Origin: Ruegeria sp. HKCCD4315
GTDB taxonomy: Bacteria; Pseudomonadota; Alphaproteobacteria; Rhodobacterales; Rhodobacteraceae
Direction: 5' to 3'
Length of the DNA: 64,000 bases
Assembly: GCF_013112245.1 (NCBI RefSeq)
Contig: NZ_WVRN01000002.1
Coordinates: 806,001-870,000 of the forward strand
The notes beneath the pieces were generated by a model, which saw only the letters and a program-made list of their open reading frames with translations, made no database searches and was not told where the DNA came from. Positions 11,355 to 27,205 of this stretch are shown piece after piece (the first letter of the stretch is position 1; the number at the start of each line of letters is the position of its first letter). A program made the translations under genes and the position numbers.

Positions 11355-12050
11355 TCAGGTACGAGCTTTCTCGAACTCAGACCAAGCGACCGAGAAGGCA
11401 TCAAAATCAAATCCTGGCTGCGCAGCCGCGTCCAGGACGATACGTTCCGTGGTCAGCAGCTTTTGGATTGCGGCCTCAAGCTGGTCAACAACGTCTTCGG
11501 GAATCGCCAACGCACCGTGCCGATCCGCATGGATCAAGTCACCGGGATTGACCGTCAGGCTAAAAATCGTGACGGGCGTGTCAATCTCGCGGACATGGAC
11601 AAAGCCGTGGCTTGGGCCAACAGACCCAGCAACAACGGGGAATCCTTCGGGCACGTCCCCCAGATCCCGCATCACGCCGTTGGTCAATGCCCCCGACATG
11701 CCAAATCCCTTGTGGACCGTAGTGTTGATCTCTCCCCAATAGGCACCGATGCAATCGGGGAAATCCAAATCCTCAACCACTGCCACCGAAGGCGCGGGCC
11801 CTTCGGCCATGTACTTGTAATAGGCCATTCGGCGCGCCTTGATGACATCGGCGGGTTCGGTTGGCGGATTGACCGCTGCAATCTTGGCTGTGCGGGCATA
11901 GCCGACAATGGCTGGTTCGTCCGGAGCCGAGCACAGCATGGTGCCGCGGGTAAAGCCGTTGAACCCGCGCTTGCCTTGCGCCACCTCAATGGCGTTGCAG
12001 ACAGTGGGCGTATCCACTTTGCGGAGCAGTGACAAAAGTGACGGTGTCAT
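11355..12050 (-). CDS. RraA-like / HMG aldolase-fold protein
   Basis: A 231-residue member of the RraA family (4-hydroxy-4-methyl-2-oxoglutarate aldolase or oxaloacetate decarboxylase fold). The segment DTPTVCNAIEVA near the N-terminus and the GALTNGVMRDL loop with the catalytic Arg-Asp pair are recognisable. Many homologues cleave pyruvate from small oxo-acids; true RraA proteins inhibit RNase E and are shorter (about 160 residues). Being the last gene of a long catabolic operon, an aldolase that yields a central metabolite is the likelier role. Its start overlaps the upstream hydrolase stop by 4 bases. Confidence 0.75.
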   Translation of the reverse strand: MTPSLLSLLRKVDTPTVCNAIEVAQGKRGFNGFTRGTMLCSAPDEPAIVGYARTAKIAAVNPPTEPADVIKARRMAYYKYMAEGPAPSVAVVEDLDFPDCIGAYWGEINTTVHKGFGMSGALTNGVMRDLGDVPEGFPVVAGSVGPSHGFVHVREIDTPVTIFSLTVNPGDLIHADRHGALAIPEDVVDQLEAAIQKLLTTERIVLDAAAQPGFDFDAFSVAWSEFEKART

Positions 12051-12742
12051 GTGTCCTCCAACCAGCGGATCAACGCCGCCGTGGTTTTGTTTGGTTGTTC
12101 CAATGTGGGCAAATGCCCGGCTTCTTCGATGATCTCAAACACGCTGTTTGGCAGCAGATCATGCATCAACTGATGCCGCTCGACCGGGCAAAGACCATCT
12201 TCCCTGCCGCAGAGAACCAGAGTTTTTCCGGAATAGGCAGATAGGGTCTGGCGTTGGTCCGGGCGGTTCATCAAAGCGTGGGACTGGCGCAGAAATGCCT
12301 CGGGCCCCAGATCAGTGGCCATTGCCATGCACAGGTCAAGTATCGCCCCCTGATGAGGGCCATCTGCCAAATAATTCGGCTTCATCTCGTCCCGCATCAC
12401 GTTTCGCAGCTTACCATTCTTTACGGCCTCGATCTGAGGGGCACGGCGGGCTTTGACCTCGGACGTTTCCGCCAAGGGGTTGGTGTCCATAAGCACCAGC
12501 TTTTGGGTGCGCGCGGGCGCTTGTCGCAACACTTCCATCGCCACGATCCCGCCCATCGACAGCCCGGCAAGCGCAAAGGCGGGCGGTGCGTGGGCCAGAA
12601 TTTCAGCAGCCAGGGCCTCGACGCTGTCATGCTGATGCAGCGGAAAGGTCATGACCGGCATCTTACCCGACAACGCCTCGATCTGGGGACCAAAGAGCCG
12701 GGCATCGCACATCATGCCCGGTAAAAGGATCAATGGTGTCAT
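12047..12742 (-). CDS. Alpha/beta hydrolase
   Basis: A 231-residue alpha/beta-hydrolase-fold enzyme. The nucleophile elbow is GLSMGG (Ser near residue 72), the acid is likely in the CGREDGLCP segment, and the catalytic His is in EAGHLPTLEQP near the C-terminus. The N-terminal LLPGMMCD is an oxyanion-hole-type HG/PG stretch. No signal peptide, so cytoplasmic. It overlaps the genes on both sides by 4 bases in the 14-gene operon. It could hydrolyse an ester, lactone or thioester intermediate; nothing in the sequence fixes which. Confidence 0.8.
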   Translation of the reverse strand: MTPLILLPGMMCDARLFGPQIEALSGKMPVMTFPLHQHDSVEALAAEILAHAPPAFALAGLSMGGIVAMEVLRQAPARTQKLVLMDTNPLAETSEVKARRAPQIEAVKNGKLRNVMRDEMKPNYLADGPHQGAILDLCMAMATDLGPEAFLRQSHALMNRPDQRQTLSAYSGKTLVLCGREDGLCPVERHQLMHDLLPNSVFEIIEEAGHLPTLEQPNKTTAALIRWLEDT

Positions 12743-13866
12743 GCCGAAGCCAGCTTAGCCCCTTCGGACAGCGAAGCCAGTTTGGCATAGGCGATCTGAG
12801 GGTCTACGGCCCCAAAACCGGCAAAGGTGCCAAAGCCGCAGTCACTGCCGGCAATCACACGATCTGCCCCCACGATGTCCTTGAAACGCTCAATTCGCTG
12901 GGCCACCAATTCGGGATGCTCGACGAAATTGGTGGTGGTGTCGACGACACCGGGCACCAGAACCTTGTCGTCCGGGATCTCGGCCTTGCGGTCGCGGAAC
13001 ACGGTCCATTCGTGGGCGTGACGCGGGTTTGAGGTCTCGAACAATATATAGCGGGCTTTGGTTGCCATCAGCGTGGTGAACACCTTGTCCATTCCGATAT
13101 CGCAACAATGCGGCCCTTCGTAGTTGCCCCAGCAAATATGCACGCGCACGCGATCCTGCGGTACGTTTTGCAAGGCATGGTTCAGAGCCTCGACATGCAT
13201 ATCGGCGATCTTGAGGAACTCGTCATCGGACAGATCGGTGAACAGCATGTGGCGCGACAAGGCCAGATCGGGGCAGTCCAATTGCAGGTCCAGACCAGAG
13301 GCCACGATGGTTTCGTATTCTTCTTTCATCGCATCCGCCAGCGCCGCAAGATAAGCTTCACGCTTGGGATAGAAGTCGTTTTGAAGGAACAAGGAAATCA
13401 CACCGGGTGAGGCTGCGTTCATGAACCCGCGCTCAGCACCATGTTGAGCCATGGCAGCTTTGAGGTTGGCAATATCTTTCTCAAGCTCGCCCTGACCTTT
13501 CGAGCGGACCTCGCCCGTACACATGGGCCTCGCATATTGCGGCGTACCACCGTCATTAGCGAGGCGTTCCAAAAAACTGGGAAACATTTTCAGATCAGCT
13601 GGCGCGTTACGCGGGCTGTCACCGGAAAACCCCGTGTAGCGGTCCTTGACGTAGGTGGCATAGGAAATCTTTGAGGTTTCGCCATCACTGACAATATCGA
13701 CGCCAGCCTCAACCTGCTTACGCACGGTTTCGGAAACCGCTTCTGTCATGCAAGCGTCAAAAGCAGCGGCGTCGTAAGCCTCGTTGTTCTCGCGCGCGAA
13801 GATAAAGTCCACAACGTCCTGAGTTCGGGGCAGAGACCCCACATGTGAAGTAAGAATTTTGGTCAT
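12739..13866 (-). CDS. MetE C-terminal-domain-like zinc methyltransferase or C-S enzyme
   Basis: A 375-residue protein matching only the catalytic half of cobalamin-independent methionine synthase. The zinc ligands of that family can be placed at His243 and Cys245 (VHICWG), Glu277 (LFETSN) and Cys343 (SDCGFG). The start MTKILTSHVGSLPRT is typical of stand-alone members. Full MetE is about 750 residues, so this is not housekeeping methionine synthase. Stand-alone members include core methionine synthases, epoxyalkane-coenzyme M transferase and uncharacterised catabolic proteins. In this operon it hints at a thiol, methylthio or other heteroatom-linked intermediate. Confidence 0.75.
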   Translation of the reverse strand: MTKILTSHVGSLPRTQDVVDFIFARENNEAYDAAAFDACMTEAVSETVRKQVEAGVDIVSDGETSKISYATYVKDRYTGFSGDSPRNAPADLKMFPSFLERLANDGGTPQYARPMCTGEVRSKGQGELEKDIANLKAAMAQHGAERGFMNAASPGVISLFLQNDFYPKREAYLAALADAMKEEYETIVASGLDLQLDCPDLALSRHMLFTDLSDDEFLKIADMHVEALNHALQNVPQDRVRVHICWGNYEGPHCCDIGMDKVFTTLMATKARYILFETSNPRHAHEWTVFRDRKAEIPDDKVLVPGVVDTTTNFVEHPELVAQRIERFKDIVGADRVIAGSDCGFGTFAGFGAVDPQIAYAKLASLSEGAKLASA

Positions 13867-13884
13867 GCGGGGTCTCCGTCTGTG

Positions 13885-14847
13885 TTAGTTACCAGTCCAG
13901 GTTGCACCTGCCGGATCATCGGTTGCGGTGATACGGTAGAGCCCGGCCTGACCGGTCATCGAGGGTTGAGCGCTGTAGCTTTCGCCCGGCATTACCACTG
14001 CGGTATCGCCGTTGGACAATGTGGTCACAACATCGTTGATCTCGATCCGCCAATGGCCACTTGCGGGCATCAGAACCACCGGTTTTTCTGCTTTGACACG
14101 ATCGTTCACAGCTGAGCCACGGGTCAGGAAATCAACCTCGAAGCCCGGCTTGTCCTTGATCAGGCCGTTTTCACCGATCACAACAGCAGGCTTGTTTGCC
14201 GACAGCGCCATCAGGTCCCAATAGCGGGCAACGTATTTACCGACCACATCCTGAACCGGAACCTCGGGATAGGCTTTCAGTTCCACTTCGGTCAGCAAGG
14301 GCATGGGCTGCACATTGTGCGGCAGCTCTTCACCCTTCTTGCTGTCATAAAGCACGCCATTGTTGCCCAGCATCAGGCCATGGGCTTGAGCGTCTTCAAT
14401 AACCTGAGGTGCCCATGTCACGCCACCACCCGCGTCGTCACCACCAAGGATCGACATGATCATGCCGTAGTCCTGACCAACGTTTTCGAAGCCGCGGAAG
14501 ATGCCGGTGGGGATGTTGAAGATGTCACCCTCTTCAGCGATGAACTCACCAGCAGTACCATACCGGCCCCAGAAGAAACGCCAGCGACCTTTGGCAACAA
14601 AGAACACCTCGGCCGTGGTGTGGCTGTGCAAAGAGTTGCGGCATTTCGGCGGTTGCCCCGCCGCGCCGATGTTGAACCCGATCTTGTCGGTGATGTGAAC
14701 GTGCTGGTCCGGGCTTTCCGAGACGCCACCGCCGACGATGGTAAAGTTCTCTTTCTGGTCCGACCCGGGTGTGTGGGCATCGATGAAAGCGGTTTTGCAG
14801 GGTTGCAGCTCTCCGTAACGGACGATGCGGCTTTGAATGGTACTCAT
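13885..14847 (-). CDS. Cupin-domain protein
   Basis: A 320-residue protein with a cupin barrel. A metal-binding motif is visible as HSHTTAEVFFV (with the pattern H-x-H-x4-E) around residues 85-95 and the barrel continues to GDIFNIPTG; a second, degenerate cupin-like half with GDTAVVMPGE lies near the C-terminus. The ATG ending at 14847 has an AAGGAA site 7 bases upstream, so an earlier in-frame start is less likely. The function may be dioxygenase or isomerase on an acid intermediate. It sits between a double SnoaL protein and the MetE-like gene. Confidence 0.75.
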   Translation of the reverse strand: MSTIQSRIVRYGELQPCKTAFIDAHTPGSDQKENFTIVGGGVSESPDQHVHITDKIGFNIGAAGQPPKCRNSLHSHTTAEVFFVAKGRWRFFWGRYGTAGEFIAEEGDIFNIPTGIFRGFENVGQDYGMIMSILGGDDAGGGVTWAPQVIEDAQAHGLMLGNNGVLYDSKKGEELPHNVQPMPLLTEVELKAYPEVPVQDVVGKYVARYWDLMALSANKPAVVIGENGLIKDKPGFEVDFLTRGSAVNDRVKAEKPVVLMPASGHWRIEINDVVTTLSNGDTAVVMPGESYSAQPSMTGQAGLYRITATDDPAGATWTGN

Positions 14848-14884
14848 ATCTGTATTCCTTTGCTTGGTTTGAGGTTTGAACGGA

Positions 14885-15001: not shown

Positions 15002-15002
15002 G

Positions 15003-15992
15003 TTACTTGCCGCCGGTCTGCAACAGGATCTGTTTCCAGACCGATGTTTCATCAAACAGGGTGTATTCCCGGCGCAACTGCGGCTGGCCGCTGATCAACT
15101 CGCCAAACTCACCGTGGCTGATGCCCAGCACATACACCTCGGCCCCGGTTGGAACGCCGAACACGCCCCAGCCGTCATGCTTACCATGCAGGCTCCACCG
15201 CACAGCCGCGCGCGGGGCCATGTTGGGATCGTCTCGCCCGATCTGGTGTTCGATCTTGAACTCGGCATTGGGGAAGCTGGCGCGCAGGCCCATCCAGAAC
15301 CGATCCACCGAGTCCCAGCCGTGGCCGGTGACGCCGCCCACATATTCGGCTTGTACAGCGCGGTCATATTCGGCCTCGATCACGCCCATATCGGCGCTCA
15401 TGATCCGGGTCAGGATGTCAGCATAACGCTGACCCCATTCATTGTCGTTGCCGTTGCCCTTGTAGGGGCCGGGCTGGTCCGTCGCAGGCGTCAGCGGTTT
15501 GACGCAATTTTCCGGCCCGCCCTCACGCGCGATCAGATCAGCAGCATATTCCTTGGGATCCCAGCCCATTTGGCGCACGATGGCACCCTGGTCGCGGATC
15601 AGCCATTCATCGTTGATCTGATTGTCGATGGCATGGCAGTCGGCCAGAATCCGATAGCGCAGTTGCTTTCCTGTCGCCTTGCCATAGACACCATCGGCCA
15701 GATGCGTCGCGGTCGAGATGATGCGGTGCGAGCTCAGCATCCCTTCTTCCGGAGTACCGGACCAGATCACATCCTCGCCCAGCAACTGCCGGTCGGGGAA
15801 TTCGGCCAGAGTTGCCATCGTTGCCCCTATGACGTTCTGATTGCCCAGTACCACCGAAGCGGGCGAGCGTACAACGATGTCCGGCGAGTAGTAGTGATGC
15901 AGCGTTGCAATGCCGCGATCTTCCCAGATTTCCTTGGTGATCCCGATGATATAGTCGGGGAAATCTTTGAATTTGGGATCAAATCCCTTCAT
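15003..15992 (-). CDS. Double-domain SnoaL/NTF2-like protein
   Basis: About 329 residues made of two consecutive cone-shaped SnoaL/NTF2-like domains (roughly 1-155 and 160-329); each shows the pattern of N-terminal helices, a substrate-pocket strand set and a terminal stretch rich in Trp and Asp. The ATG ending at 15992 overlaps the LacI stop by 4 bases and has AAGGA 8 bases upstream; an ATG 9 bases earlier is possible. SnoaL-type proteins act as cyclases, isomerases, hydratases or small-molecule binders in the cytoplasm. One of four such proteins in this locus. No specific reaction can be assigned. Confidence 0.75.
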   Translation of the reverse strand: MKGFDPKFKDFPDYIIGITKEIWEDRGIATLHHYYSPDIVVRSPASVVLGNQNVIGATMATLAEFPDRQLLGEDVIWSGTPEEGMLSSHRIISTATHLADGVYGKATGKQLRYRILADCHAIDNQINDEWLIRDQGAIVRQMGWDPKEYAADLIAREGGPENCVKPLTPATDQPGPYKGNGNDNEWGQRYADILTRIMSADMGVIEAEYDRAVQAEYVGGVTGHGWDSVDRFWMGLRASFPNAEFKIEHQIGRDDPNMAPRAAVRWSLHGKHDGWGVFGVPTGAEVYVLGISHGEFGELISGQPQLRREYTLFDETSVWKQILLQTGGK

Positions 15993-17008
15993 GTCTTCCA
16001 TCCTTCAGGTATGCGGGCCGAGCCGCGAACAATCAAAGGCCCATCAATCTCTAACCGGCGCGGATCAACATCCGGGTCATCGATTTTGCTGAGCAGAATT
16101 TCCACCGTTTCGCTCACCATACGATTGGCTGGCTGGCGTACGGTTGTCAGGTTGTAAGTTGGCCAAGCGGCCACCGAGACATCGTCATATCCAACGACAG
16201 ATACGTCGTCTGGCACCTTGACGCCCAATTCAAAGCGCAGCGTATCCATCACCGCAATCGCCATGTGATCATTGGCCACAAACAGCGCATCGGGCGGATC
16301 CGAGGCGAACATGCGCCGCGTCGCTTCCTGCGCCTGTTCGGTTACAAAGTTACCAATCTCGCGCGCATGCAGTTCGACACCTGCGTCACGCAACGCCCGG
16401 ACAAAACCTGCCTCGCGGTCACGTTGGGTCGAAGTACCTTCCCAACCTGCGATGTAGCCGATTTTCTTATGGCCCGCAGCCAGCAGGAACTCGGCCACCT
16501 TACGCCCGCCTGCAATGTTATCTGACGTGACCGCAGACATGGCCGGGTCGTCCTGCGCCCGGTTGAACAGCACCATTGGCACCCCCGCCGCGCGGCACCG
16601 ATCTGATAATTCAGAGGACAGAGTGACCGAGGCCGCAATGATACCATCAACCTGAAAGTCCAGTATCTCAGACACCACCTTGTCGACGTTGACTGTCGCT
16701 TGCGGTGCCATGAAGATCATCACGTGATAGCCACGTTCCTGCAGTAGATTGGTCAGCTTTTCCAAAGCTTCGGGATAAAACTGGTTGTCCAGATACGAGA
16801 CCACAAGGCCGATGATCCGGCTTTTGCCAGAGACCACCGCACGCGCCAGAACATTCGGACGATACCCAAGCTCATCCGCGGCCTTGCGCACCTTGGCGAT
16901 GGTCTTTTCCGAGGCCGACGCACCGGGCGTAAACACACGGCTGACAGCGGATTGGCTTACCCCTGCCCGCCGTGCCACGTCCAATGATGTGACCTTCTGA
17001 GTTCCCAT
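15989..17008 (-). CDS. LacI-family transcriptional regulator of the SnoaL-rich locus
   Basis: A 339-residue repressor: helix-turn-helix SLDVARRAGVSQSAVSRVF (residues 7-25), hinge LGYRPNVLARAV, then a periplasmic-binding-like effector domain. It is embedded in the operon it presumably controls, overlapping the SDR stop by one base (TGATG) and the following SnoaL gene by four. The operators in the divergent promoter at 25243-25260 and 25298-25315 fit a LacI protein. It resembles the LacI at 3841-4854 in its DNA-binding helix, so I kept cross-binding in mind, but the 4951 palindrome differs in sequence. Confidence 0.87.
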   Translation of the reverse strand: MGTQKVTSLDVARRAGVSQSAVSRVFTPGASASEKTIAKVRKAADELGYRPNVLARAVVSGKSRIIGLVVSYLDNQFYPEALEKLTNLLQERGYHVMIFMAPQATVNVDKVVSEILDFQVDGIIAASVTLSSELSDRCRAAGVPMVLFNRAQDDPAMSAVTSDNIAGGRKVAEFLLAAGHKKIGYIAGWEGTSTQRDREAGFVRALRDAGVELHAREIGNFVTEQAQEATRRMFASDPPDALFVANDHMAIAVMDTLRFELGVKVPDDVSVVGYDDVSVAAWPTYNLTTVRQPANRMVSETVEILLSKIDDPDVDPRRLEIDGPLIVRGSARIPEGWKT

Positions 17009-17775
17009 CAGTCCGCTGTCCAGCCTCCATCCACCAACATCGAAGTACCTGTTACCAGTGCTGAAGCATCCGAGGCCAGATAGACCACCGCGCCCATGAT
17101 ATCTTCGATCTCACCGGGGCGGCCTAACTTGATCTTGTCCAGAATCCAAGCGCGCTTATCCGGGTCGTCGAAGGTCGAACGTGTCAGATCAGTCAGAATA
17201 AATGTCGGGCATATAGTGTTGACCCGGATTTTTGCAGAACCGAATTCAAGCGCCATGGCTTTGGTGAAGCCTTCAACTGCAAATTTTGAGGCACAATAGA
17301 CAGCGCGTTCGCGCCCGCCCACATGCCCCATCTGACTTGAGATATTGATCAACGAGCCAGGGTGCCCTGCGTCGAGCAACCCCTTTGCCACGGCCTGAGT
17401 CAGGAAATACGCACCGCGTACATTGACATTCATCACCGCATCGAAATCCGGCGCTGACGTGTCAATCGCCTTGCCATGACGGGCCAACCCGGCCGAGTTT
17501 AAAAGGATCTCGAACGGACCGTTTTCCGCCACGGCCGCAGCGGTGGCATCAACATCGGATACATCCAGTTCCAGCACCTTGGCCGACCAGCCGCGCGCAG
17601 ACATCTCGGACGCGATCTCTTGCAGCGCGCCCGTCCGACGCGCTGCAAGAGTAACCTCAGCCCCATGTTCCGCCAGCGCCACGGCACAGGCCATGCCGAT
17701 ACCGGAGGATGCCCCCGCAACCAAAGCGCGCTTGCCACTGAGGTTGAAGCTGGGCGTACTGGGGAGTTGCGCCAT
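17008..17775 (-). CDS. Short-chain dehydrogenase/reductase
   Basis: A 255-residue classical SDR. Seen are the cofactor glycine motif GASSGIG (about residues 19-25), NSAG in place of the usual NNAG, the catalytic Ser in NISSQMG and Tyr/Lys in YCASK. The ATG ending at 17775 is chosen because GGGGA lies 8 bases upstream; an ATG at 17784 would overlap the upstream stop by 8 bases. It probably oxidises or reduces a hydroxyl/keto group of a pathway intermediate with NAD(P). Located between a SnoaL gene and the LacI gene, tightly coupled on both sides. Confidence 0.85.
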   Translation of the reverse strand: MAQLPSTPSFNLSGKRALVAGASSGIGMACAVALAEHGAEVTLAARRTGALQEIASEMSARGWSAKVLELDVSDVDATAAAVAENGPFEILLNSAGLARHGKAIDTSAPDFDAVMNVNVRGAYFLTQAVAKGLLDAGHPGSLINISSQMGHVGGRERAVYCASKFAVEGFTKAMALEFGSAKIRVNTICPTFILTDLTRSTFDDPDKRAWILDKIKLGRPGEIEDIMGAVVYLASDASALVTGTSMLVDGGWTAD

Positions 17776-17776
17776 A

Positions 17777-18829
17777 TCAGACATCCCCGACCGGGAACGA
17801 GATCGACCCAGGAACCCGCGCTTTGTTGAACTCGCGCAGACGGGCAAACACGTCGACACCCAGTTGCCTGTAGGCATCCAGAATATCGACGGTGACCCAG
17901 TTTTCGCGGATCTTGCCGTTCTCAAGACGCCAGAAGTCCAAGCTGCGCATGGAGATCCGTTGGCCTGACGGCGCAATGCCCATCCAACCATCATGCGTCA
18001 CAGTCTGGATCATATCGGGCCAACCGGTCACAGCGGCATATTCACCGTCACCGAAGAAGTGATACTGAATCTCGTCGAGATACTGACCACGATCCGGCAT
18101 TCCGTTCAGAAACGGAATTTGGTGCCAGTTGCGGAACCCGGAAATTCCCCGCCCCGTACCGATTGCGGCAGGTCCGTACCAATTCATGCGCTCGTGCCAG
18201 AACTTTGGCATCTCCATCACTTCCGGACCACCCTGAGTGGGGTGCTTCTTGAGATGTGCCAGCATTGTCACGATGTGCTCACAGGACGCCTGCGACTTCG
18301 CCTCATCCCAGGGCCCCGGCACAAGGCCGTCATGTGTCGCAGGGCCTGGAATGCAGAATTCAAGCCCAAGCGACGGTGTCATCGGCCAGGCTTTGGCCTG
18401 AATCATGACTTCTGGAATATCCCAGATCGTCTGGATCTCGACCACCTTGCCATCTTCAAATCGGTAGAATTCGTGGTACCGCATATGAGTCAGATGGCCT
18501 GTTGGCGGAATATCCAGCCAAGGTGCGACGAAGGTGCCATAGTAATGGCCGCCGCAACCGATCCAGTCACCGCCATGCTCGGTACGCCCTCCCATGACGA
18601 TCCAGTCACGCCGCTCCAAATCCGGCATCGAGGCCAGCAGCGGTGCGTAGCATTGATCATACAACTCGACCGGGCCAGTCAGGTCACCAAAGGGGTGGCA
18701 CATATGCACCACCGCATCCGGGGAAATCAGCGCTTCCAGCGCTGCGCGTACCCCGGTTTCTTCAAAGTCATACATCGCCGCCCGAAGCGGCGCGATCAGC
18801 GCTTTGTTTGCTGAATGTACGTCGCTCAT
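17777..18829 (-). CDS. Double-domain SnoaL/NTF2-like protein (ester cyclase-like)
   Basis: A 350-residue protein of two SnoaL-like domains. It shares the linker signature PGPATHDGL with the paralogue at 25329-26333, which shows that the two arose by duplication. Each domain ends in a GK(V/I)xExW-type strand: [12 protein letters not shown] in the first, [12 protein letters not shown] in the second. Its start overlaps the HpsN-like stop by 4 bases. Candidate activities are ring opening/closure, dehydration or isomerisation; nothing fixes it. Confidence 0.78.
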
Positions 18830-20168: not shown

Positions 20169-20699
20169 TCAGTTTGCGGGCCGAGGCGGAGTTTTCTCGC
20201 CCCGGTCATATGCTTCCCATCCGTTCCCCTGGAACAGATCAACGCCCAATTGGGCTGCCACATGGGCAAAATCGACATTCACCCAGTTGTCGACAATCTT
20301 GCCGTCAACCACTTTCCAGAAATCCATGTACCGAATTTCGACACGCTTGCCCGTGGCGGGAATGCCCAGAAACTCGCCCGAATGGGTGGCTTCTTGACGA
20401 CCAAAGGCCGCAGCCCATTCACCCATGTAAAGGCGCGCCTCATCAATGCAGGTCTTGTCGGAAAACGCCGCCTGAAAAGGGCGTTGCCAATTGTCCTGGA
20501 ATTCATTCAACCCGGTCTTGGTGCCGCAGCCCTGGTTGCCCATCCAGCGGAAACCCTGCGCGAAAAATTCACCGATGTCATCGATGCGGTGGTCATTCAG
20601 CCCGTCAACCATCCCTTCGATGACGGCGCGCGTTTCTTCGGTTTTGCTCATATCCGTGTCTTTGGTCAGCACGGCTTGTTCGGGGCGTGAACCCTTCAT
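20169..20699 (-). CDS. Single-domain SnoaL/NTF2-like protein
   Basis: A 176-residue single SnoaL domain. Its C-terminal half aligns by eye with the second domain of the 17777-18829 protein ([19 protein letters not shown] against [19 protein letters not shown], both followed by QLGVD). AAAGGA lies 8 bases before the ATG ending at 20699; an internal ATG at 20651 (MSKTEE) is a weaker alternative. It is the first enzyme gene after the transporter genes in the operon. Function unknown: cyclase, isomerase or binder. Confidence 0.75.
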
Positions 20700-20836: not shown

Positions 20837-21718
20837 TCAGCCTTTGACCGCACCGGCTGTCAGACCACTGACAATCTGGCGCTGGAAGAACAGGATCAGG
20901 ACGAACAGCGGGGCAGTGGTCGAGACCACAGCAGCAACCGCGTACATGATCTTGCCTTCAACTTGCGTGGTGCCCATGAAGCTGTTGATGGCAGGAATGA
21001 TGGTCTCATTCTCTTCACTCAACAGCATCGCCGTGACGGCAAAGTCGTTATAGGCCAGCAGGAAGCTGAACAGACCTGTGGTGATCACGCCGGGCCACAT
21101 GACCGGTACGATCACATGCCAGAAGGCCTGGAACCGCGTACAACCATCGACCATGGCGCTTTCGTCCATGTCCTTGGGGATGTTCTTGAAGAAAGAATGC
21201 AGCATCCACAGCGTGAACGGCTGGTTGATCGCCACAAGCACGATGATCGTTGTGGGCAGAATACCCCAGACATTCCACTCGAAAAACGGCAACAGATAGC
21301 CCGAGACTAGCGTGATATGCGGCATGGCACGGAACACCAGCGCAGCCATCAGGATCCAGAAGGCATAGCGAAAACCGGACCGGGCCAGAGCATAGCCGCC
21401 CAAGGTGCCGAAGGTCAGCGAGATGACCACGGTAAAGAACACAACGATGCCGGTGTTCCTGAAATTGAACCAGAAATCCTCGAGCACCCAGGCGCCGTAA
21501 TAGCCCGCACCGGTAAAGGCGCTTCCGGTCTGTTCGATTGTGTTGGTACCTGTCAGGGCGTTCATCCAGTCGGCCTTTGACAAGAAGTCGGCCTGCACCT
21601 TGAAACTGCCCCAGAAGGTCCAGAAGAACGGGAACGCCGCAATGATCAGCCACACCGCCACAAAGGCGTATGAGAACAGCTTGAGCGGGGTCATGCGAGA
21701 TTGTGCTTTGGTCGCCAT
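20837..21718 (-). CDS. Sugar-type ABC transporter permease (MalG class)
   Basis: A 293-residue inner-membrane protein with six hydrophobic segments and the EAA-loop motif MDESAMVDGCTRFQAFWHVIVP around residues 187-208 (described in parts: Asp-Glu-Ser-Ala start, Gly, then Ile-Val-Pro end). It belongs to the carbohydrate-uptake class MalG/UgpE. It follows the MalF-type gene after 10 bases. Despite the sugar-transporter class, related systems import glycerophosphodiesters, polyols and other polyhydroxylated molecules. Confidence 0.9.
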   Translation of the reverse strand: MATKAQSRMTPLKLFSYAFVAVWLIIAAFPFFWTFWGSFKVQADFLSKADWMNALTGTNTIEQTGSAFTGAGYYGAWVLEDFWFNFRNTGIVVFFTVVISLTFGTLGGYALARSGFRYAFWILMAALVFRAMPHITLVSGYLLPFFEWNVWGILPTTIIVLVAINQPFTLWMLHSFFKNIPKDMDESAMVDGCTRFQAFWHVIVPVMWPGVITTGLFSFLLAYNDFAVTAMLLSEENETIIPAINSFMGTTQVEGKIMYAVAAVVSTTAPLFVLILFFQRQIVSGLTAGAVKG

Positions 21719-21728: not shown

Positions 21729-22760
21729 CTAGTGAGATTTGCGGGTGAAGTCGCGCCAGGTGCGGATCAGCACAGGCGTCATCAGGATGACCACCAGAAT
21801 AATGGTAATCAGCGAAGTCGCACCGGCCGAACCGTAAAGCGGATTGCCGCTTTCGCGCAGGTCATTGTAGATGATCCAGCTGAGCGACTGAGCGTGCGCT
21901 TCAGCCTTGAAGCTGACGATCGGTTCAAAGACGCGGAAGTTATCCATGATCATCATCAGCGTCACAAAGGATACCAGCGGGGCAAGGTGCGGTACGATCA
22001 CATGGATCATACGCTGCCATTTGGTGGCACCATCGATCTGTGCGGCCTCCATCGTGTCCTCGGGGACCGTTTGCAAACCCGCGTAGAATGTGATGAAGCT
22101 GAAGGGTAAGGTGTGCCACACCCCGTAAAACATCAGCATGATCCATGTCAGCGCGGTCGATGCTTTCAAACTCAGAGTTGGATCGTTGAAGATGTTTTGA
22201 ATCGTGGCCCCAATCACACCATCACTGTCGACCATCCAGAACAGGATCAAAGAACCCACAAGCGGTGTAACGAGGAAGGGCAACAGCGAGATGAAAATCG
22301 CCAACCCCTTGAGCATATTGGGCAAGTTGTTCACGCCAACTGCGATGGCCATACCAAGGACTAGCACCAGTGGGGTTACGATCGCCGTGTAGGCCAGTGT
22401 AAAGGTCAGCGCGCTATAGAACGGAAGGTTGTAGACCTTCGAAAAGAACTCACCCATCGAAGCCGAGCTTGCCCAAGCCTCGCCTACTTCTGCAAAAGCC
22501 AGATGCGAGCGGTTGGTGTAAGTTCCTAAACCATTGAACTGACCCAGCGGCCGTTCCTCTTGCAGCTTGGCCGTTGCTTCAAGGTCTACCGACGTTGTCG
22601 GCGTACAACCGAACGGGCCGCAGCTTTCAGACACGACCAGAACTTGTTCGTGCGCAACAAACAGCGACTGAATAAAGACCGAGACGATAGGCAGGGCGAT
22701 GAACAAAATCATCGCGGAAAGCGTCGGCAGAATGAACCAGAAAAAGGTGCGGTGCTTCAT
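21729..22760 (-). CDS. Sugar-type ABC transporter permease (MalF class)
   Basis: A 343-residue inner-membrane protein with an N-terminal hydrophobic segment, a periplasmic loop after it, and six further membrane segments. The EAA motif is MEAAQIDGATKWQRMIHVIV (around residues 227-246). An unusual periplasmic insert between the first and second segments contains two cysteines (SESCGPFGCTP) that could form a disulfide. It heads the permease pair downstream of the binding-protein gene. Confidence 0.9.
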   Translation of the reverse strand: MKHRTFFWFILPTLSAMILFIALPIVSVFIQSLFVAHEQVLVVSESCGPFGCTPTTSVDLEATAKLQEERPLGQFNGLGTYTNRSHLAFAEVGEAWASSASMGEFFSKVYNLPFYSALTFTLAYTAIVTPLVLVLGMAIAVGVNNLPNMLKGLAIFISLLPFLVTPLVGSLILFWMVDSDGVIGATIQNIFNDPTLSLKASTALTWIMLMFYGVWHTLPFSFITFYAGLQTVPEDTMEAAQIDGATKWQRMIHVIVPHLAPLVSFVTLMMIMDNFRVFEPIVSFKAEAHAQSLSWIIYNDLRESGNPLYGSAGATSLITIILVVILMTPVLIRTWRDFTRKSH

Positions 22761-22793
22761 GGCGTTCGTCCCGATCTGAAGTCCGAGTTGTGT

Positions 22794-22816
22794 GAGGGGG
22801 CCTGAACAGCCCCCTC
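22794..22816 (-). terminator. Intercistronic hairpin after the sugar-type binding-protein gene
   Basis: GAGGGGGC (22794-22801) and GCCCCCTC (22809-22816) form a perfect 8-base-pair stem with a 7-base loop in the 69-base gap between binding protein and permease. There is no T run on the transcribed strand, so it likely shapes relative expression, as does the equivalent hairpin at 7352-7380. Confidence 0.55.
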
Positions 22817-22829
22817 GGTTCCGGCAGAA

Positions 22830-24074
22830 TTACTGGAGGAAACCAGCTTCTTTAGCGGATGTTCTGTAGGCGGCCTCGACATCGGCCAGCGCTTGTTCAG
22901 CGCTTTCGTCACCCTTCAGGAAGTCCGCCAGTTCCGCGCCCAGCGCTGCGTGCAGCAGGCCCATCTGCGGGATCATCGGATAAGGCTTGGCACCACCCTG
23001 AGCGGTTTGCGCTACACCCGCCGCAGCCGGTCCGGGCTGGAAGCCGTCCAGCAGCCAAACGGCGTCGTCATTGTTGGCTGCAACCATGTCCGGTGTCAGA
23101 GCACTGACCAGAGCCGCAAAGGTGGCTTCAGCCTCTTCATCCGATACGTTGGACGAGATCGCGATGCCATCCCACCACAGTGTGGCCGAAGGGATCGAGC
23201 CACCACCAACGGTCGGCGCCGCAGACAGAACCGTGTTCGATGTCACTTCTTCGGTCGAACCTTCATCGTCCAGGATTGGCGAACCGCGCGAACCCCACAT
23301 GACACCCAGTGCCGCCTGACCGGATTCCCACAGGCCCTGCGTCTCGTTCGAGGCGTGGGTCAGGTGGTCAGGATGGGCATACTCGGCCAGCGATTTCATG
23401 ACTTCCAGAGCAGCAAGGCCCTTTTCGTTGTTGACCGCTGGTTCCGCCGAACCGGGCTCGAAGAACTCACCGCCATGACCCAGATAGATCATGTTGAACA
23501 CCTCACCGACGTTCCAGCCGGTTTGCAGGTTCATCACAATCGGGTGCTCCATGATACCCGCTTCGCGGATCATGGCTGCGGCTTCCAGAACCTCTTCGTA
23601 CGTGGCAGGGATGCCTTCGAAACCTGCCTGCTCAAGAATGTCCTTGCGCGAGAACAGGTGCTGCGAGTTGGCCATGAACGCTACGGCCATGACGTTGCCG
23701 TCGATGGTGATCAGCAGGTTGGGCGAGATGTTTTCGCCGTACTTCTCAACCAGATCGTTCAGCGGGCGGACCAGACCGTCATTCATCAGCTGAGTCAGCG
23801 TCGCGTTTGCCAAAATCACCGAGGAATACTCAGCCGGATTCGGCGTCAGGGCCGCGTTCATGATCTGACGGGCTTCGGTCGTGTGGTTGGTGGAAAACTC
23901 AGACGCACCGGCGGCACAGTTGCTCTCAGCAGTACCTGCGACAGCGTGGATGGCCGGGAAGTCACTGGCCAGAATGCGAATGGATTGACCTTCGGGACCA
24001 CAGTTGGCCGCATAGGCAGCCGTACCCATCAGACCCACAAAGGCGGTTGCGGTAGCTAGATTTTTCAGAAACAT
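22830..24074 (-). CDS. Sugar-type ABC transporter periplasmic binding protein
   Basis: A 414-residue secreted family 1 solute-binding protein. The signal peptide MFLKNLATATAFVGLMGTAAYA is cut about residue 22 (the text is split by the cleavage Ala-Ala). The ATG ending at 24074 has a GGGAG site upstream and is preferred over a longer in-frame start. It supplies the ligand to the MalF/MalG permease pair at 20837-22760 and the ATPase at 24169. Ligand unknown; its enzymes downstream suggest a multifunctional cyclic or lactone-forming compound. Confidence 0.88.
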   Translation of the reverse strand: MFLKNLATATAFVGLMGTAAYAANCGPEGQSIRILASDFPAIHAVAGTAESNCAAGASEFSTNHTTEARQIMNAALTPNPAEYSSVILANATLTQLMNDGLVRPLNDLVEKYGENISPNLLITIDGNVMAVAFMANSQHLFSRKDILEQAGFEGIPATYEEVLEAAAMIREAGIMEHPIVMNLQTGWNVGEVFNMIYLGHGGEFFEPGSAEPAVNNEKGLAALEVMKSLAEYAHPDHLTHASNETQGLWESGQAALGVMWGSRGSPILDDEGSTEEVTSNTVLSAAPTVGGGSIPSATLWWDGIAISSNVSDEEAEATFAALVSALTPDMVAANNDDAVWLLDGFQPGPAAAGVAQTAQGGAKPYPMIPQMGLLHAALGAELADFLKGDESAEQALADVEAAYRTSAKEAGFLQ

Positions 24075-24101
24075 CTCATCTCCCTGTTTCTTTGAAAAGT
24101 G

Positions 24102-24122
24102 ATGCGCGCCCCTTACGCGCAT
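24102..24122 (-). other. Short hairpin between ATPase and binding-protein genes
   Basis: ATGCGCG (24102-24108) pairs with CGCGCAT (24116-24122) around a 7-base loop in the 94-base gap. It lies in the leader of the binding-protein gene, about 28 bases before its start, and may affect translation or mRNA processing. Confidence 0.35.
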
Positions 24123-24168
24123 GGGTTAGATTCCCGGGGTTGCTCCCGGTGGTTTGGCGGGGCTTTCT

Positions 24169-25215
24169 TCAGATCCGTTGTCCAGACGTGCCATCAAACA
24201 GGTGGCAAATTTCGGTGGGAACCGAAATGGAAACCATATCGTCGATCTCTGCCCGGAAGTTCTTGTCTGCCTTCACGGATACCAATGCGCCTCCGACACG
24301 AACCGAAATCATCGTCGCATCGCCCAGCAGTTCCTGCGTGTAGATCGGAGCGTTGATCTGCCCCTGCCCTTCCGCCGCCAGCGTCGCATCTTCAGCGCGG
24401 AACCCAAGTGTCAGGGGACCATCAGGCGCAGTGATATTCGGAATCTCCACGTGGTCGGCGACAAACGTGCCGTTGCGGACTTGGCCTTCCATCAGGTTCA
24501 TGGCCGGGTTGCCGATAAAGCTGGCCACAAATGTATTGGCCGGGGTGTCGTAGATTTCGGTCGGGCTGCCGACCTGCTGAACGACACCGCTTTTCATCAC
24601 CACAACGCGATCTGCCAGCGTCATTGCCTCGATCTGGTCGTGTGTCACGTAGATGGTTGTCACTGCCAGTTCATGGCTGAGGTTCTTGATCTGCGCCCGA
24701 GTTGAAACCCGCAGTTTCGCGTCAAGGTTGGACAGTGGTTCGTCCATCAAAAAGACGTTCGGCTCACGCACAATGGCGCGCGCCAAAGCAACGCGCTGGC
24801 GCTGCCCGCCCGACAGTTCCGCTGGTTTGCGATGCAGGAAGTCGTCCAGTTCGACCATTGCCGAGGCACGGCGCACCTTATCATCATGCGTTGCAGGATC
24901 GATACCGCGTACCCGTAGCGGGAAGCGGATGTTCTCGTACACGTTCATGTTCGGATAGAGCGCGTAAGACTGGAACACCATCGCCACATCGCGGTCTTTC
25001 GGCTCCATTTCGTTGACGCGCACGCCGTCGATCATGATGTCGCCTTCACTGGCATCTTCCAGGCCCGCGATCATCCGCATCGTTGTGGTTTTGCCGCAGC
25101 CTGAGGGACCCAGCAGAACCAGGAACTCCTTGTCAGCTATGGTCAGATCGAAATTGTCGACGCCGACAAACGAACCCCATCGCTTGCCAACATTGCGCAA
25201 TTGAATCTCGGCCAT
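24169..25215 (-). CDS. Sugar-type ABC transporter ATP-binding protein (MalK/UgpC class)
   Basis: A 348-residue ATPase with Walker A GPSGCGKTT (residues 33-41), signature LSGGQRQRVALARAI, Walker B VFLMDEPLSNLDAKLR, H-loop VTHDQIEAM and C-terminal MalK-type OB/TOBE domains. It is the promoter-proximal gene of the 14-gene minus-strand operon; in most such loci the ATPase is placed last, so this order is slightly unusual. It starts 113 bases from the divergent SnoaL gene, with two operators between. Confidence 0.92.
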   Translation of the reverse strand: MAEIQLRNVGKRWGSFVGVDNFDLTIADKEFLVLLGPSGCGKTTTMRMIAGLEDASEGDIMIDGVRVNEMEPKDRDVAMVFQSYALYPNMNVYENIRFPLRVRGIDPATHDDKVRRASAMVELDDFLHRKPAELSGGQRQRVALARAIVREPNVFLMDEPLSNLDAKLRVSTRAQIKNLSHELAVTTIYVTHDQIEAMTLADRVVVMKSGVVQQVGSPTEIYDTPANTFVASFIGNPAMNLMEGQVRNGTFVADHVEIPNITAPDGPLTLGFRAEDATLAAEGQGQINAPIYTQELLGDATMISVRVGGALVSVKADKNFRAEIDDMVSISVPTEICHLFDGTSGQRI

Positions 25216-25242
25216 CCGCTTCTCCCGTTGGATTGGAAATTT

Positions 25243-25260
25243 TTTGCATACGCTTGCAAA
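25243..25260. promoter_or_regulatory. LacI-type operator 1 of the SnoaL-rich locus
   Basis: TTTGCATACGCTTGCAAA: half-sites TTTGCA and TGCAAA around a central CG. Read on the other strand it is nearly identical to operator 2 (TTTGCAAGCGTATGCAAA against TTTGCAATCGTATGCAGA). It lies 28 bases from the ATPase start, where it could block that promoter. Confidence 0.6.
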
Positions 25261-25297
25261 TACGGTAGACTTAACTGCGTCATTTTGGCAAGGTTTT

Positions 25298-25315
25298 TTT
25301 GCAATCGTATGCAGA
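25298..25315. promoter_or_regulatory. LacI-type operator 2 of the SnoaL-rich locus
   Basis: TTTGCAATCGTATGCAGA, in inverted orientation to operator 1 and 55 bases from it centre to centre (about five helical turns). It ends 13 bases before the plus-strand SnoaL start at 25329. The pair could support a repression loop by the LacI encoded at 15989-17008. Confidence 0.6.
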
Positions 25316-25328
25316 AAGGCGTTACTCG

Positions 25329-26333
25329 ATGTCCGGGTTCTCGGCAGAAAAGCAAGTAATCAAAGAGTTTTATGAGCAACTGGACCGCTCCGAAACAGGA
25401 GCGGAACACAAGGTTCTGTCAGAGTACTACAGCTCGAATCACATCTGGCGCGGGTTTCATCCGTTTGACGAGATACGCGGACCTCAGGCCGTTGCAGATA
25501 CCTTCTGGACGCCCCTGCGCGCATCGCTGACGCAATTACAAAGGCGGCAGGATGTCTTCATGGCAGGCGCCAACGAAATGGACGATTTCTCGTCTGTCTG
25601 GGTGGTGTCGATGGGACATCTGATGGGCTTGTTCGATACGCCCTGGTTGGGTATCGCGCCAACCGGTAAGTTGGCTTTTTTACGCTATTGCGAATTCAAC
25701 CGTGTGGAAGATGGCAAGATCACCGAAACAGCGATGTATTTCGATGTTCCACATCTAATGTTGCAAGCCGGGCTGCAACCCTTCCCGCCGCAAACCGCTG
25801 CCCAACTGGTACAGCCCGGACCAATGACCCATGACGGGCTGATGTTTGACCCCCAACCCCCAGAGGAAGGTGAACAGACTCTGGCGGCGATCAACGCGAT
25901 GATCTCGGATCTGGGTCAATGGAACAGCGGGCTGAACCTTGAGGATGAACTGCGCCGCACATGGCACGAAGACATGTTGTGGTGGGGACCCACAGGGATC
26001 GGCGCGACCTACACGATTGAGCGCTACGCCAAGCAACATGCAGGGCCGTTCCGCGCAGGTTTCACCGACCGGTCAAAGACCAAACATCTCTGCCGCATGG
26101 CCGAGGGGCATTATGGTGGCTTCTTCGGCTGGCCCAACTTCACCGCCCGCCCTACCGGAGGCTTCATGGGCATGCCCGCCACAGACAAGGCCGGAGAATT
26201 CCGAGTGATCGACATTTACCGTCGCGCGGGTGACAAGCTGGCTGAAAACTGGATTTTCATTGACTTGCTGCATTTCTGGAAACAGCAAGGCGTAGACATT
26301 CTGGGACGTATGCAACAGGTGCCGCGCACATGA
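25329..26333 (+). CDS. Double-domain SnoaL/NTF2-like protein, divergent copy
   Basis: A 334-residue protein of two SnoaL-like domains, paralogous to the protein at 17777-18829 (shared PGPMTHDGL linker, PTGKLAFLRYCEF against [13 protein letters not shown]). The ATG at 25329 follows an AAAGG site by 9 bases; an upstream TTG at 25299 would fall inside operator 2 and is unlikely. It heads a two-gene plus-strand unit with the amidohydrolase, overlapping it by 4 bases (ATGA). Function unknown; the linkage to a lactonase-like enzyme suggests cyclisation or ring-opening chemistry. Confidence 0.78.
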   Translation: MSGFSAEKQVIKEFYEQLDRSETGAEHKVLSEYYSSNHIWRGFHPFDEIRGPQAVADTFWTPLRASLTQLQRRQDVFMAGANEMDDFSSVWVVSMGHLMGLFDTPWLGIAPTGKLAFLRYCEFNRVEDGKITETAMYFDVPHLMLQAGLQPFPPQTAAQLVQPGPMTHDGLMFDPQPPEEGEQTLAAINAMISDLGQWNSGLNLEDELRRTWHEDMLWWGPTGIGATYTIERYAKQHAGPFRAGFTDRSKTKHLCRMAEGHYGGFFGWPNFTARPTGGFMGMPATDKAGEFRVIDIYRRAGDKLAENWIFIDLLHFWKQQGVDILGRMQQVPRT

Positions 26334-27205
26334 CTGGCTGGATAGACGCGCATCATCACCTTTGGGATCTAAAGGCCGTTCACTACCCGTGGCTGATGGC
26401 CAAAGGCGTTGAGCGGTTTTTTGGAGACCCGTCTACCATTCAGCGGAACTACCTTTTGGGCGAATTCAACGCAGATGCCCAAGCTCAGGGCATCCGCGCC
26501 TCGGTCCATATTCAGGTGGGGGCCGAAGATGGGATGGCCGAAGCCCGGTGGGTTCAATCGGTGGCGGACGCCAACCCCAACTGGCCCATGGCACAAGTGG
26601 TCTTTTGCGACCTGACCGCACCGGATCTGACGGACCAATTGGATGCGTTCCAGCACCTCAGCACCGTACGTGGCGTGCGCCAGATCGTTGGCCGCGCGCC
26701 CGGAGAGGATGCGCAAACCGGCACCAACGCCCTGTTGGACGACCCCCGCTTTCTGACCGGTTTGCAAGAGGCCGGGCGACGAGGGTTAAGCTTTGATTTG
26801 CAACTGATCCCCGAACTCTACGAGAAAACCGCTCGTGTGTTGGCCAAAGCGCCAGACACGCAAGTTGCGCTTTGCCACGCTGGATCACCCCATGACCGCA
26901 GCACTGCGGGGTTGAATGAATGGGCCAAAAATCTGCGAACGCTGTCAGATTTGCCGCACGTGACCTGTAAACTCTCGGGTCTGGGCATGTTTGACCATCA
27001 CTGGTCGACCCAAAGCATCCGCCCGATTGTCGAGACAGGCCTTGACCAATTCGGCGCGCACCGAACCATGTATGGTTCGAATTTTCCGGTCGACAGCCTG
27101 TACAGCGACTACGCAACCCTCATGAGGGCCTATGCGGAATTAATCCCGGAAGAGGCCAAGTCGGCAGTGTTTCGTGAAACAGCAAAGCGGTTTTATAAGC
27201 TCTGA
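26330..27205 (+). CDS. Amidohydrolase-family (COG3618) lactonase-like hydrolase
   Basis: A 291-residue TIM-barrel metal hydrolase of the amidohydrolase 2 type. Motifs seen: DAHHHLWD at residues 6-13, a mid-protein ALCHAGSP, VTCKLSGLG and the C-terminal MYGSNFPVD with the metal Asp. Characterised relatives open lactones such as 2-pyrone-4,6-dicarboxylate or fuconolactone. It is coupled to the divergent SnoaL gene, and so probably acts in the same pathway as the 14-gene operon. Its end is 20 bases from the convergent CoA-ester lyase. Confidence 0.82.
   Translation: MTGWIDAHHHLWDLKAVHYPWLMAKGVERFFGDPSTIQRNYLLGEFNADAQAQGIRASVHIQVGAEDGMAEARWVQSVADANPNWPMAQVVFCDLTAPDLTDQLDAFQHLSTVRGVRQIVGRAPGEDAQTGTNALLDDPRFLTGLQEAGRRGLSFDLQLIPELYEKTARVLAKAPDTQVALCHAGSPHDRSTAGLNEWAKNLRTLSDLPHVTCKLSGLGMFDHHWSTQSIRPIVETGLDQFGAHRTMYGSNFPVDSLYSDYATLMRAYAELIPEEAKSAVFRETAKRFYKL

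Follow-up and report, generated by a model that had tools for sequence, protein, structure and literature searches.

In the window (the whole 64,000-nucleotide stretch of Ruegeria DNA that was analyzed), we have identified a locus that is, on balance, best read as a LacI-controlled catabolic operon, through which a carbohydrate-like substrate would be imported, oxidized, and degraded to pyruvate. The gene set is widely shared, and it probably serves many marine bacteria in the uptake and degradation of a sugar-like compound. The locus (positions 11355 to 27205) comprises 14 minus-strand genes and a divergent plus-strand pair, every one of which was found as claimed in a preliminary description of this DNA. 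The features are as follows:

11355..12050 (-), RraA-like protein, 231 aa (PF03737, E 6e-17), present in 44/80 loci
12047..12742 (-), alpha/beta hydrolase, PcaD (3-oxoadipate enol-lactonase)-like, 231 aa (PF12697)
12739..13866 (-), MetE-like protein (cobalamin-independent methionine synthase catalytic domain), 375 aa (PF01717, E 2e-13)
13885..14847 (-), bicupin, 320 aa
15003..16001 (-), tandem SnoaL/NTF2 protein, 332 aa (PF07366 and PF12680), present in 68/80 loci
15989..17008 (-), LacI-family regulator, 339 aa (PF00356/PF13377)
17008..17778 (-), SDR dehydrogenase (PF13561, E 4e-57)
17777..18829 (-), tandem SnoaL/NTF2 protein, 350 aa (PF07366/PF12680 in two stretches)
18826..20157 (-), HisD-superfamily dehydrogenase with GKFPM motif, 443 aa (PF00815, 436 bits)
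20169..20699 (-), single-domain SnoaL/NTF2 protein, 176 aa (PF07366, E 2e-21)
20837..21718 (-), sugar-type ABC permease 2 (PF00528)
21729..22760 (-), sugar-type ABC permease 1 (PF00528)
22830..24074 (-), extracellular solute-binding protein (PF01547)
24169..25215 (-), ABC ATPase, MalK/UgpC type (PF00005; OB_MalK and TOBE_2 below cut-off)
25244..25259, predicted LacI-type operator TTGCATACGCTTGCAA, matching the pattern exactly
25299..25314, a further operator-like site with one mismatch, spaced 55 bp from the preceding one
25329..26333 (+), divergent tandem SnoaL/NTF2 protein, 334 aa from ATG (PF07366/PF12680)
26330..27205 (+), amidohydrolase_2 (PF04909), present in 22/80 loci

Start codons were placed at ATG 14847 for the cupin, ATG 24074 for the binding protein, and ATG 25329 for the divergent SnoaL gene; a TTG at 25299 forms the first three bases of the second operator-like site. 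Most of the closest solved relatives of the binding protein bind sugars (E 5e-10 or weaker), and the SDR reached no NCBIfam cut-off among the best 25 of 235 families. The neighboring block at 27226 to 31523 (HpcH, MmgE/PrpD, hydratase, and CoA transferase) was excluded from the locus because it has no match beside the 80 loci, except for a single 30% CoA-transferase match at L030.

Of 46 divergent promoter regions, 44 contain a LacI-type palindromic operator, against none of 9,200 mononucleotide shuffles; the pattern had been derived from the very regions where it was later counted. Two exact sites with a spacing of 54 to 55 bp occur in 20 of these 46 regions, and in five split loci (L017, L074, and L077 to L079) the operator lies upstream of the ATPase gene. 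The palindrome is the predicted operator of the locus LacI protein, by which the operon would be controlled. A second operator type, TTGCAACCGGTTGCAA, found among the matches listed in 41 relatives, was taken to belong to another LacI regulon.

The preliminary description had suggested a profile search for co-occurring loci in the Rhodobacteraceae; 80 loci from other genomes, that family included, were compared. The HisD gene lies inside the same locus in 58 of the 80, where it almost always has the same neighbors; therefore, the gene set reflects more than chance. Gene order is maintained in most of the Rhodobacteraceae and Roseibium loci found and is changed in Halomonas and other Proteobacteria. 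Among 385 alphaproteobacterial genomes, the tandem SnoaL protein and the cupin occur together in 26, alone in 2 and 3, respectively, and not at all in 354 (Fisher 8e-35). In one genome sample, the 332-aa SnoaL protein (E 1e-20) is present in 15 of the 26 other genomes of the same family. Gammaproteobacteria also carry the operon, in this or a rearranged form, as do soil strains of Paracoccus and Ensifer, and a haloarchaeon has a related SnoaL cluster. The view that these genes form one coherent catabolic locus is thus upheld by conserved synteny, by the common operator in the divergent promoter, and by co-occurrence across genomes.

Variant loci divide the gene set into an import and SnoaL part, which is separable from a part in which HisD and the SDR are joined by a pyruvate aldolase, either RraA or a GarL-like one. 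HisD is missing from 22 loci, and the genomes of 13 were searched, several of the other loci being short contigs; HisD was found elsewhere in 12 of the 13 and the cupin in all 13, and in 9 of the 12 at most approximately 6 kb separates the two. A minimal pathway consisting of the importer and one SnoaL protein (L017, L022, L037/L038, and L078/L079) was rejected on these 13 genomes, because HisD and the cupin are encoded elsewhere in those genomes. In split loci, the 350-aa SnoaL gene adjoins the importer; the permeases precede it in 12 of the 13 loci from the genomes searched (L023 is the exception), with one extra SnoaL gene between them in L022. Conversely, SnoaL-less variants combine TAXI-TRAP, LacI, an aldolase, HisD, and the SDR (L187, which L185 resembles) or DctP TRAP, HisD, the SDR, LacI, the cupin, MetE, and RraA (L195), and these variants suggest that the SnoaL proteins and the ABC importer act upstream in the pathway. 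Against the reading as one operon, 31 of the 385 genomes have a HisD protein of the locus subfamily but no relative of the SnoaL query, some of these HisD proteins lying in unrelated surroundings (L186 and L198). Because the MetE-like, alpha/beta hydrolase, and RraA genes are each present in only 44 to 45 of the 80 loci (39 to 40 of the 52 whose flanks are long enough), and the amidohydrolase is present in still fewer, these four genes are not obligatory.

The preliminary description had counted four SnoaL/NTF2 proteins with seven domains (2+2+1+2), and the Pfam matches (PF07366/PF12680) bear this out; the prospect, named beforehand, that these proteins would prove unrelated in fold was not borne out, since they belong to one fold family. 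Three of them are plainly homologs: BLASTP aligned the 176-aa protein with the C-terminal half of the 350-aa protein (E 1e-20) and the N-terminal halves of the 350-aa and 344-aa proteins with each other (E 4e-31). Of the four, the 332-aa protein has diverged furthest (best BLASTP E 1e-4), but both of its halves match SnoaL-type Pfam models. An AlphaFold model of the 350-aa protein (pLDDT 93.3, pTM 0.92) contains two NTF2-like domains. In the 176-aa protein, the only one that was mapped, Val140 lies opposite Asp121 of the 1sjw chain, which we take to be the catalytic residue of SnoaL. There are 5,273 relatives at E 1e-10 or better, often named "ester cyclase," a large class for which we know of no tested function. 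In one report (PMC10890935), the same name denotes a bacteriochlorophyll enzyme.

The dehydrogenase had been called HpsN-like, a name that holds for its superfamily and for its closest solved relative, HpsN from Cupriavidus (E 2e-114), but not for its substrate motif. In HpsN, a sulfopropanediol (DHPS) 3-dehydrogenase (8v35), the published account describes a GRY[A/S]H motif in which His126 reads the sulfonate (PMC11382572). Alignment to 8v35 showed that the locus enzyme shares the zinc ligands and the catalytic Glu and His residues typical of the HisD superfamily, including equivalents of HpsN Glu318, His319, Asp352, Lys353, and His411 (alignment read by eye); in contrast, GKFPM replaces the HpsN motif. 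The residue equivalent to His126 is hydrophobic in 56 of 56 locus proteins, including that of the window, and likewise hydrophobic, never histidine, in 42 of 42 further proteins (identity of at least 63%, motif covered). The same genome encodes a separate HpsN-type protein with GRYSH, which is 44% identical to the locus protein. A DHPS-type sulfonate pathway with an HpsN-like first step, which the relationship to HpsN would favor, is therefore very improbable and, on the motif, largely refuted. The locus protein passes the NCBIfam hisD cut-off (TIGR00069, 420 bits against 244), hence its automatic name, histidinol dehydrogenase; however, it was ruled out as the biosynthetic HisD of this genome by L084, a better PF00815 match (555 versus 436 bits) that is 37% identical to it. 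By these sequence characters, the enzyme is assigned to a third HisD subfamily, defined here among proteins automatically annotated as histidinol dehydrogenase.

Conserved motifs in the remaining enzymes point to several candidate reactions. The RraA-like protein is probably a pyruvate-type aldolase: GV.RDL.D, conserved in 45 sequences, presumably carries the Arg-Asp pair of the RraA-superfamily HMG/CHA aldolases, and the NCBIfam matches are weak (ligK_PcmE, 30 bits of 304, below the equivalog cut-off). In the alpha/beta hydrolase, GLSMGG, D, and GH motifs are conserved in 46 sequences (PcaD model, 81 bits, below the cut-off of 256). The MetE-like protein (best NCBIfam match 90 bits of 406, below the equivalog cut-off) conserves HVGSLPR, QLDCPD, HICWG, LFE, and SDCGFG in 45 sequences, presumably the zinc ligands His, Cys, Glu, and Cys together with homocysteine motifs. 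That the PcaD, RraA-type aldolase, and MetE cut-offs were not reached counts against the catabolic reading of the locus. The nearest solved relative of the amidohydrolase, presumably a lactonase, is 4dlf (E 2e-19). Among the matches listed, the bicupin fold resembles gentisate/salicylate dioxygenase, quercetinase, oxalate decarboxylase, and seed globulins. Across 32 sequences H74, H76, and E80 are invariant, as are H49, H51, and H156, and Arg118 occupies the place of the usual third metal histidine. Gentisate-type bicupin dioxygenases have a complete three-His metal site; an oxygenase role is therefore doubtful here.

The sequences show the gene set, the common operator, the co-occurrence, the separability of the two parts, and the HisD motif, whereas every reaction, the succession of steps in either part, and the class of substrate are inferred; we know of no activity or ligand for any locus protein. 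The sugar-type ABC importer would take up a carbohydrate-like compound, on which the tandem and single SnoaL/NTF2 proteins may act early, by ring opening, hydrolysis, dehydration, or isomerization. Next, the HisD-type Zn/NAD enzyme would oxidize a primary alcohol beside a hydroxyl to the carboxylate, and the SDR a secondary alcohol. The MetE-like zinc protein may remove or pass on a methyl group, which the substrate probably carries; the bicupin may open or isomerize an enediol or keto intermediate, and the alpha/beta hydrolase and amidohydrolase would open lactones. Finally, pyruvate would be released from a 4-hydroxy-2-oxo acid by an aldolase, which in this locus is RraA and in others a GarL-like member of the HpcH/HpaI family.

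It is possible, if tentative, that the substrates come from algal or plant polysaccharides and are O-methylated or deoxy sugars or sugar acids, degraded by the SDR, lactonase, and pyruvate aldolase in the manner of oxidative sugar pathways, with SnoaL replacing an enolase- or IlvD-type dehydratase or epimerase. No Pfam match to either dehydratase type was found among the locus genes, and the sugar-type ABC importer with its SSF, MFS, and TonB variants, the candidate replacement aldolases (7 of 7 GarL/HpaI-like, below cut-off), and the proximity of the amidohydrolase to 4dlf are consistent with this proposal. However, the core has no glycoside hydrolase or sugar kinase (Pfam), the TRAP/TAXI variants suggest an acid, and a HisD step is, to our knowledge, unusual for oxidative sugar pathways.

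Degradation of methoxylated C7 cyclitols, namely, mycosporine-like amino acids (MAAs) or gadusols, is a bolder proposal and much less likely. SnoaL would remove the amino acids or else open the enaminone, and the enol O-methyl would pass to the MetE-like protein. HisD would oxidize the CH2OH group that the ring carries next to its tertiary OH, the bicupin would cleave the reductone ring, and RraA would split the resulting 4-carboxy-4-hydroxy-2-oxoadipate into pyruvate and oxaloacetate. On paper, cleavage of 4-deoxygadusol between C2 and C3 with CH2OH oxidation would yield exactly this oxoadipate, and each recurring gene would presumably have a role. The RraA protein is distant kin of CHA aldolase (the LigK match above), the bicupin fold is near ring-cleaving dioxygenases, tied with others among the matches listed, and 4 of 80 loci contain an inserted GST that matches MaiA weakly (50 bits of 171). 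In addition, the Halobellus ester cyclases have, at a distance of approximately 9 kb, an O-demethylase of the DesA/LigM type (470 bits of 800) and a dioxygenase of the extradiol type (248 bits of 320), genes read as tdh/kbl adjoin two Halomonas loci, and L034 has a kbl-like gene. Against this, the main operon carries no MAA or amino-acid marker, the soil strains also have the locus, TRAP-fed variants need no MAA, the cupin lacks the third histidine, and we know of no precedent for C-N cleavage by SnoaL. No MAA degradation pathway was found among the matches listed in the literature on MAAs.

Two features of the surroundings, each in other operons and single lineages, were also weighed as possible hints of DMSP or N-methyl substrates: near L074 to L079, genes that by inspection are DmdA-like or encode an acyl-CoA synthetase and a dehydrogenase, and, in Vibrio pelagius, sarcosine oxidase genes.

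The occurrence of the operon in many marine Alphaproteobacteria, in Gammaproteobacteria, and, as a relative, in a haloarchaeon suggests that bacteria carrying it or its rearranged forms probably consume an abundant natural compound for which no pathway known to us accounts. In keeping with the earlier statement that no described pathway has this gene set, none was found among the literature matches listed, and no paper containing both "ester cyclase" and "histidinol dehydrogenase" was found; both searches covered papers outside subscription. MAA and gadusol sunscreens are abundant in the sunlit ocean, and if they were the substrates, the locus would represent a bacterial pathway for their degradation.

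The proposed carbohydrate-importing operon ending at pyruvate shares parts with several known systems. Each SnoaL domain has the NTF2-like fold of the polyketide cyclases SnoaL, SnoaL2, and IdmH (1sjw, 8r2b, and 6hnn); however, three of the four locus proteins are tandem, and the locus has no polyketide genes. Likewise, the polyether epoxide hydrolases Lsd19 and MonB (3rga and 9kw8), among the top Foldseek matches listed, have two NTF2-like domains per chain, like the 350-aa protein, but the two domains fail to superpose jointly (rmsd 15 to 18 Å over both) and identity is 12 to 15%. The lower pathway of protocatechuate 4,5-cleavage (LigI, LigJ, and LigK) presumably also combines an amidohydrolase_2 lactonase with an RraA-superfamily aldolase; unlike it, the locus lacks the aromatic dioxygenase pair, has a sugar-type importer, and scores below the equivalog cut-offs. 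Oxidative sugar-acid pathways ending in a GarL/HpaI aldolase have in common with the locus a dehydrogenase, a lactonase-like hydrolase, and a pyruvate aldolase, whereas the locus has no known dehydratase and carries SnoaL proteins, a HisD-type enzyme, and a MetE-like protein.

The genes of the locus and two putative operator sites, the latter located by pattern matching in the window, are as follows.

11355-27205, minus strand, first genes from the promoter, in order: ABC ATPase, binding protein, two permeases
11355-27205, minus strand, following the permeases in order: 176-aa SnoaL, HisD-type dehydrogenase, 350-aa tandem SnoaL, SDR, LacI
11355-27205, minus strand, after LacI to the operon end: 332-aa tandem SnoaL, cupin, MetE-like protein, alpha/beta hydrolase, RraA
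11355-27205, divergent to the minus-strand genes: tandem SnoaL and amidohydrolase
25244-25259: exact TTGCANNCGNNTGCAA site
25299-25314: TTGCANNCGNNTGCAA-like site with one mismatch

The seven SnoaL/NTF2 domains counted in the preliminary description were supported; three of the four SnoaL proteins are clearly homologous, the fourth, of 332 aa, being distant. In the genome (4.74 Mb in four contigs, with the window on contig 2), 16 stretches match PF07366 with an E-value of at most 0.01; by our own grouping these represent 11 proteins, 4 at the locus and 7 singly elsewhere. A separate region of the window (33577-46349) carries, judged by its families, a choline/betaine-type cluster: a BCCT transporter, a Rieske ring-hydroxylating oxygenase, an aldehyde dehydrogenase, an RpiR regulator, an FAD-GcvT fusion, an MR/MLE enolase, a class III aminotransferase and a ferredoxin-reductase-like protein.

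A scan of named species genomes, with the 350-aa protein as query, found 171 encoding stretches, the best 80 of which were retained; the HisD-type gene lay inside the same locus in 58 of the 80. Neighbors were counted in HisD-bearing loci with enough flank, 52 on the 332-aa SnoaL side and 49 on the ATPase side. On the former side, the 332-aa SnoaL was present in 52/52 loci, LacI, cupin and SDR each in 50, the hydrolase and RraA each in 40, and MetE in 39; on the latter, the ATPase was found in 49/49, the permeases and binding protein in 48, the single-domain SnoaL in 47, the divergent-type SnoaL in 47 (including paralogues down to 35% identity) and the amidohydrolase in 21. Hosts among these best 80 of 171 were predominantly Rhodobacteraceae, together with Roseibium, Halomonas, SAR116 and one Oceanospirillaceae MAG. 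Gene order is rearranged in the Halomonas loci (L010, L012 and L016) and near-identical in the MAG (L050), which has an additional SnoaL gene and carries the divergent-type gene at the opposite end. Plasmid-borne related clusters were seen in Vibrio pelagius, Phaeobacter, Paracoccus, Octadecabacter, Ensifer and the archaeon Halobellus limi, the last with five ester cyclases plus a MetE-II protein. On a Vibrio europaeus plasmid (L101:10603-15537), an MFS transporter, tandem SnoaL, porin and LacI form one unit adjoining an L-serine ammonia-lyase and a symporter. The separate minus-strand block adjoining the locus under study (27226-31523; HpcH/HpaI lyase, MmgE/PrpD, FAS1-type hydratase and CoA transferase III) is not conserved alongside it in the 80 loci compared.

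HisD was missing from 22 of the 80 loci, some of them on short contigs, and whole genomes were searched for 13. Twelve of these encode a HisD of the GKFPM subfamily (75-91% identical) outside the locus, and the one that does not is a 1.0-Mb assembly; the cupin was found in all 13, and in 9 of the 12 the two genes lay within ~6 kb of each other. Among 385 alphaproteobacterial genomes, taken as raw counts that ignore kinship, 28 carried a relative of the 350-aa SnoaL (E 1e-20 or better, counting paralogues), and 56 carried HisD (E 1e-140 or better), which accompanied SnoaL in 25 of the 28. The cupin occurred in 29, in 26 of them with a SnoaL relative, at a threshold (E 1e-45 or better) picked after inspection of the list; relaxing it to 1e-20 gave 41, with 12 additional genomes whose matches were partial and weaker (best E between 1e-22 and 1e-33).

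The 16-bp palindrome TTGCANNCGNNTGCAA was present in 44 of the 46 divergent ATPase/SnoaL regions from which the pattern was itself derived; 20 of them carry it twice, 54-55 bp apart, and none of 9,200 mononucleotide-shuffled regions contained it. It also lay upstream of the ATPase in 7 of 12 other cases, five of them split loci (those lacking HisD). The 80 loci (1.49 Mb in total) contain 78 exact sites: 71 fell within examined regions and the remaining 7 were 84-480 bp ahead of a cluster gene. Since matches with up to two mismatches over the whole window (7 versus 5.4 expected) were not above chance, our claim is restricted to the exact site and the one spaced from it. By this shared putative operator, the locus is predicted to be one regulon. 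A second LacI-type palindrome, TTGCAACCGGTTGCAA or a close variant of it, is conserved in 16 or more of 24 genus relatives (e.g., G779:C30:34593), where the matches listed show two or three sites separated by a few kb.

Variant loci suggest that the pathway has two parts. L187 (TAXI-TRAP, LacI, GarL-like aldolase, HisD and SDR), L185 (TRAP genes, two LacI, aldolase, HisD and SDR, by our own sequence reading, with the aldolase tested) and L195 (DctP TRAP, HisD, SDR, LacI, cupin, MetE and RraA) had no SnoaL match within the stretch, nor at E 1e-20 in their respective genomes (G335, G148 and G015). All seven candidate aldolases that were run against NCBIfam matched GarL/HpaI, below cut-off. Because of these SnoaL-free TRAP variants, and because the permeases precede the 350-aa SnoaL in 12 of 13 split loci (with one more SnoaL gene between them in L022), we infer that import and SnoaL would form an upstream part, followed by a downstream part of HisD, SDR and aldolase that different transporters supply in other bacteria, the compound supplied probably being an acid. 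Elsewhere, L180-L183 combine HisD relatives (64-68%), TRAP-like genes and small cupins, with PF04199 cyclases in L180 and L182 and a weak MaiA-type GST and a Rieske protein in L180; these gene sets are perhaps a sister pathway. GKFPM HisD genes (79% identical) at L186:9829-11169 and L198:5562-6905 have neither SDR nor transporter and, by our reading, neighbor ruvX and gatCAB.

The MetE-like protein, SAM methyltransferases (in 7 of the 80 loci, plus L177) and a DesA/LigM-type O-demethylase (below cut-off) encoded ~9 kb away from the ester cyclases of Halobellus suggest that the substrate carries a methyl group, and the transport partners of the clusters (sugar-type ABC, SSF, MFS, porin and TonB) fit a compound resembling a carbohydrate. 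A methoxylated C7 cyclitol, as in mycosporines and gadusols, is the boldest reading, which we consider improbable. Oxidation of the CH2OH of such a cyclitol and opening of its ring give, on paper, 4-carboxy-4-hydroxy-2-oxoadipate, which some RraA-superfamily aldolases cleave. This reading is drawn from gene roles only, and the hosts from soil, the cupin's lack of the third His and the lack of amino-acid genes in the main operon count against it.

The HisD-type protein passes the NCBIfam hisD cut-off, hence its automatic name, and the preliminary description had called it HpsN-like. The zinc and catalytic residues are retained in our reading of the alignment; the HpsN motif is not. PMC11382572 distinguishes HpsN from HisD by GRY[A/S]H, a motif in which His126 recognizes the sulfonate. 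In the locus protein this motif is replaced by GKFPM, and the His is missing from 56 of 56 locus proteins, including that of the window (47 GGKFPM, 5 AGKFPM and 4 GGGYPM), and from 42 of 42 further proteins of at least 63% identity whose alignments span the motif (in one more it was not spanned). The other six compared were three at 45-46% without the His, two with GRYSH and one true HisD. Because the His is absent from the motif, and because the same genome additionally encodes a true HisD as well as a GRYSH-bearing HpsN-type protein, the GKFPM enzyme is, as judged from sequence, a third subfamily beside HisD and HpsN, and its substrate probably differs from theirs.
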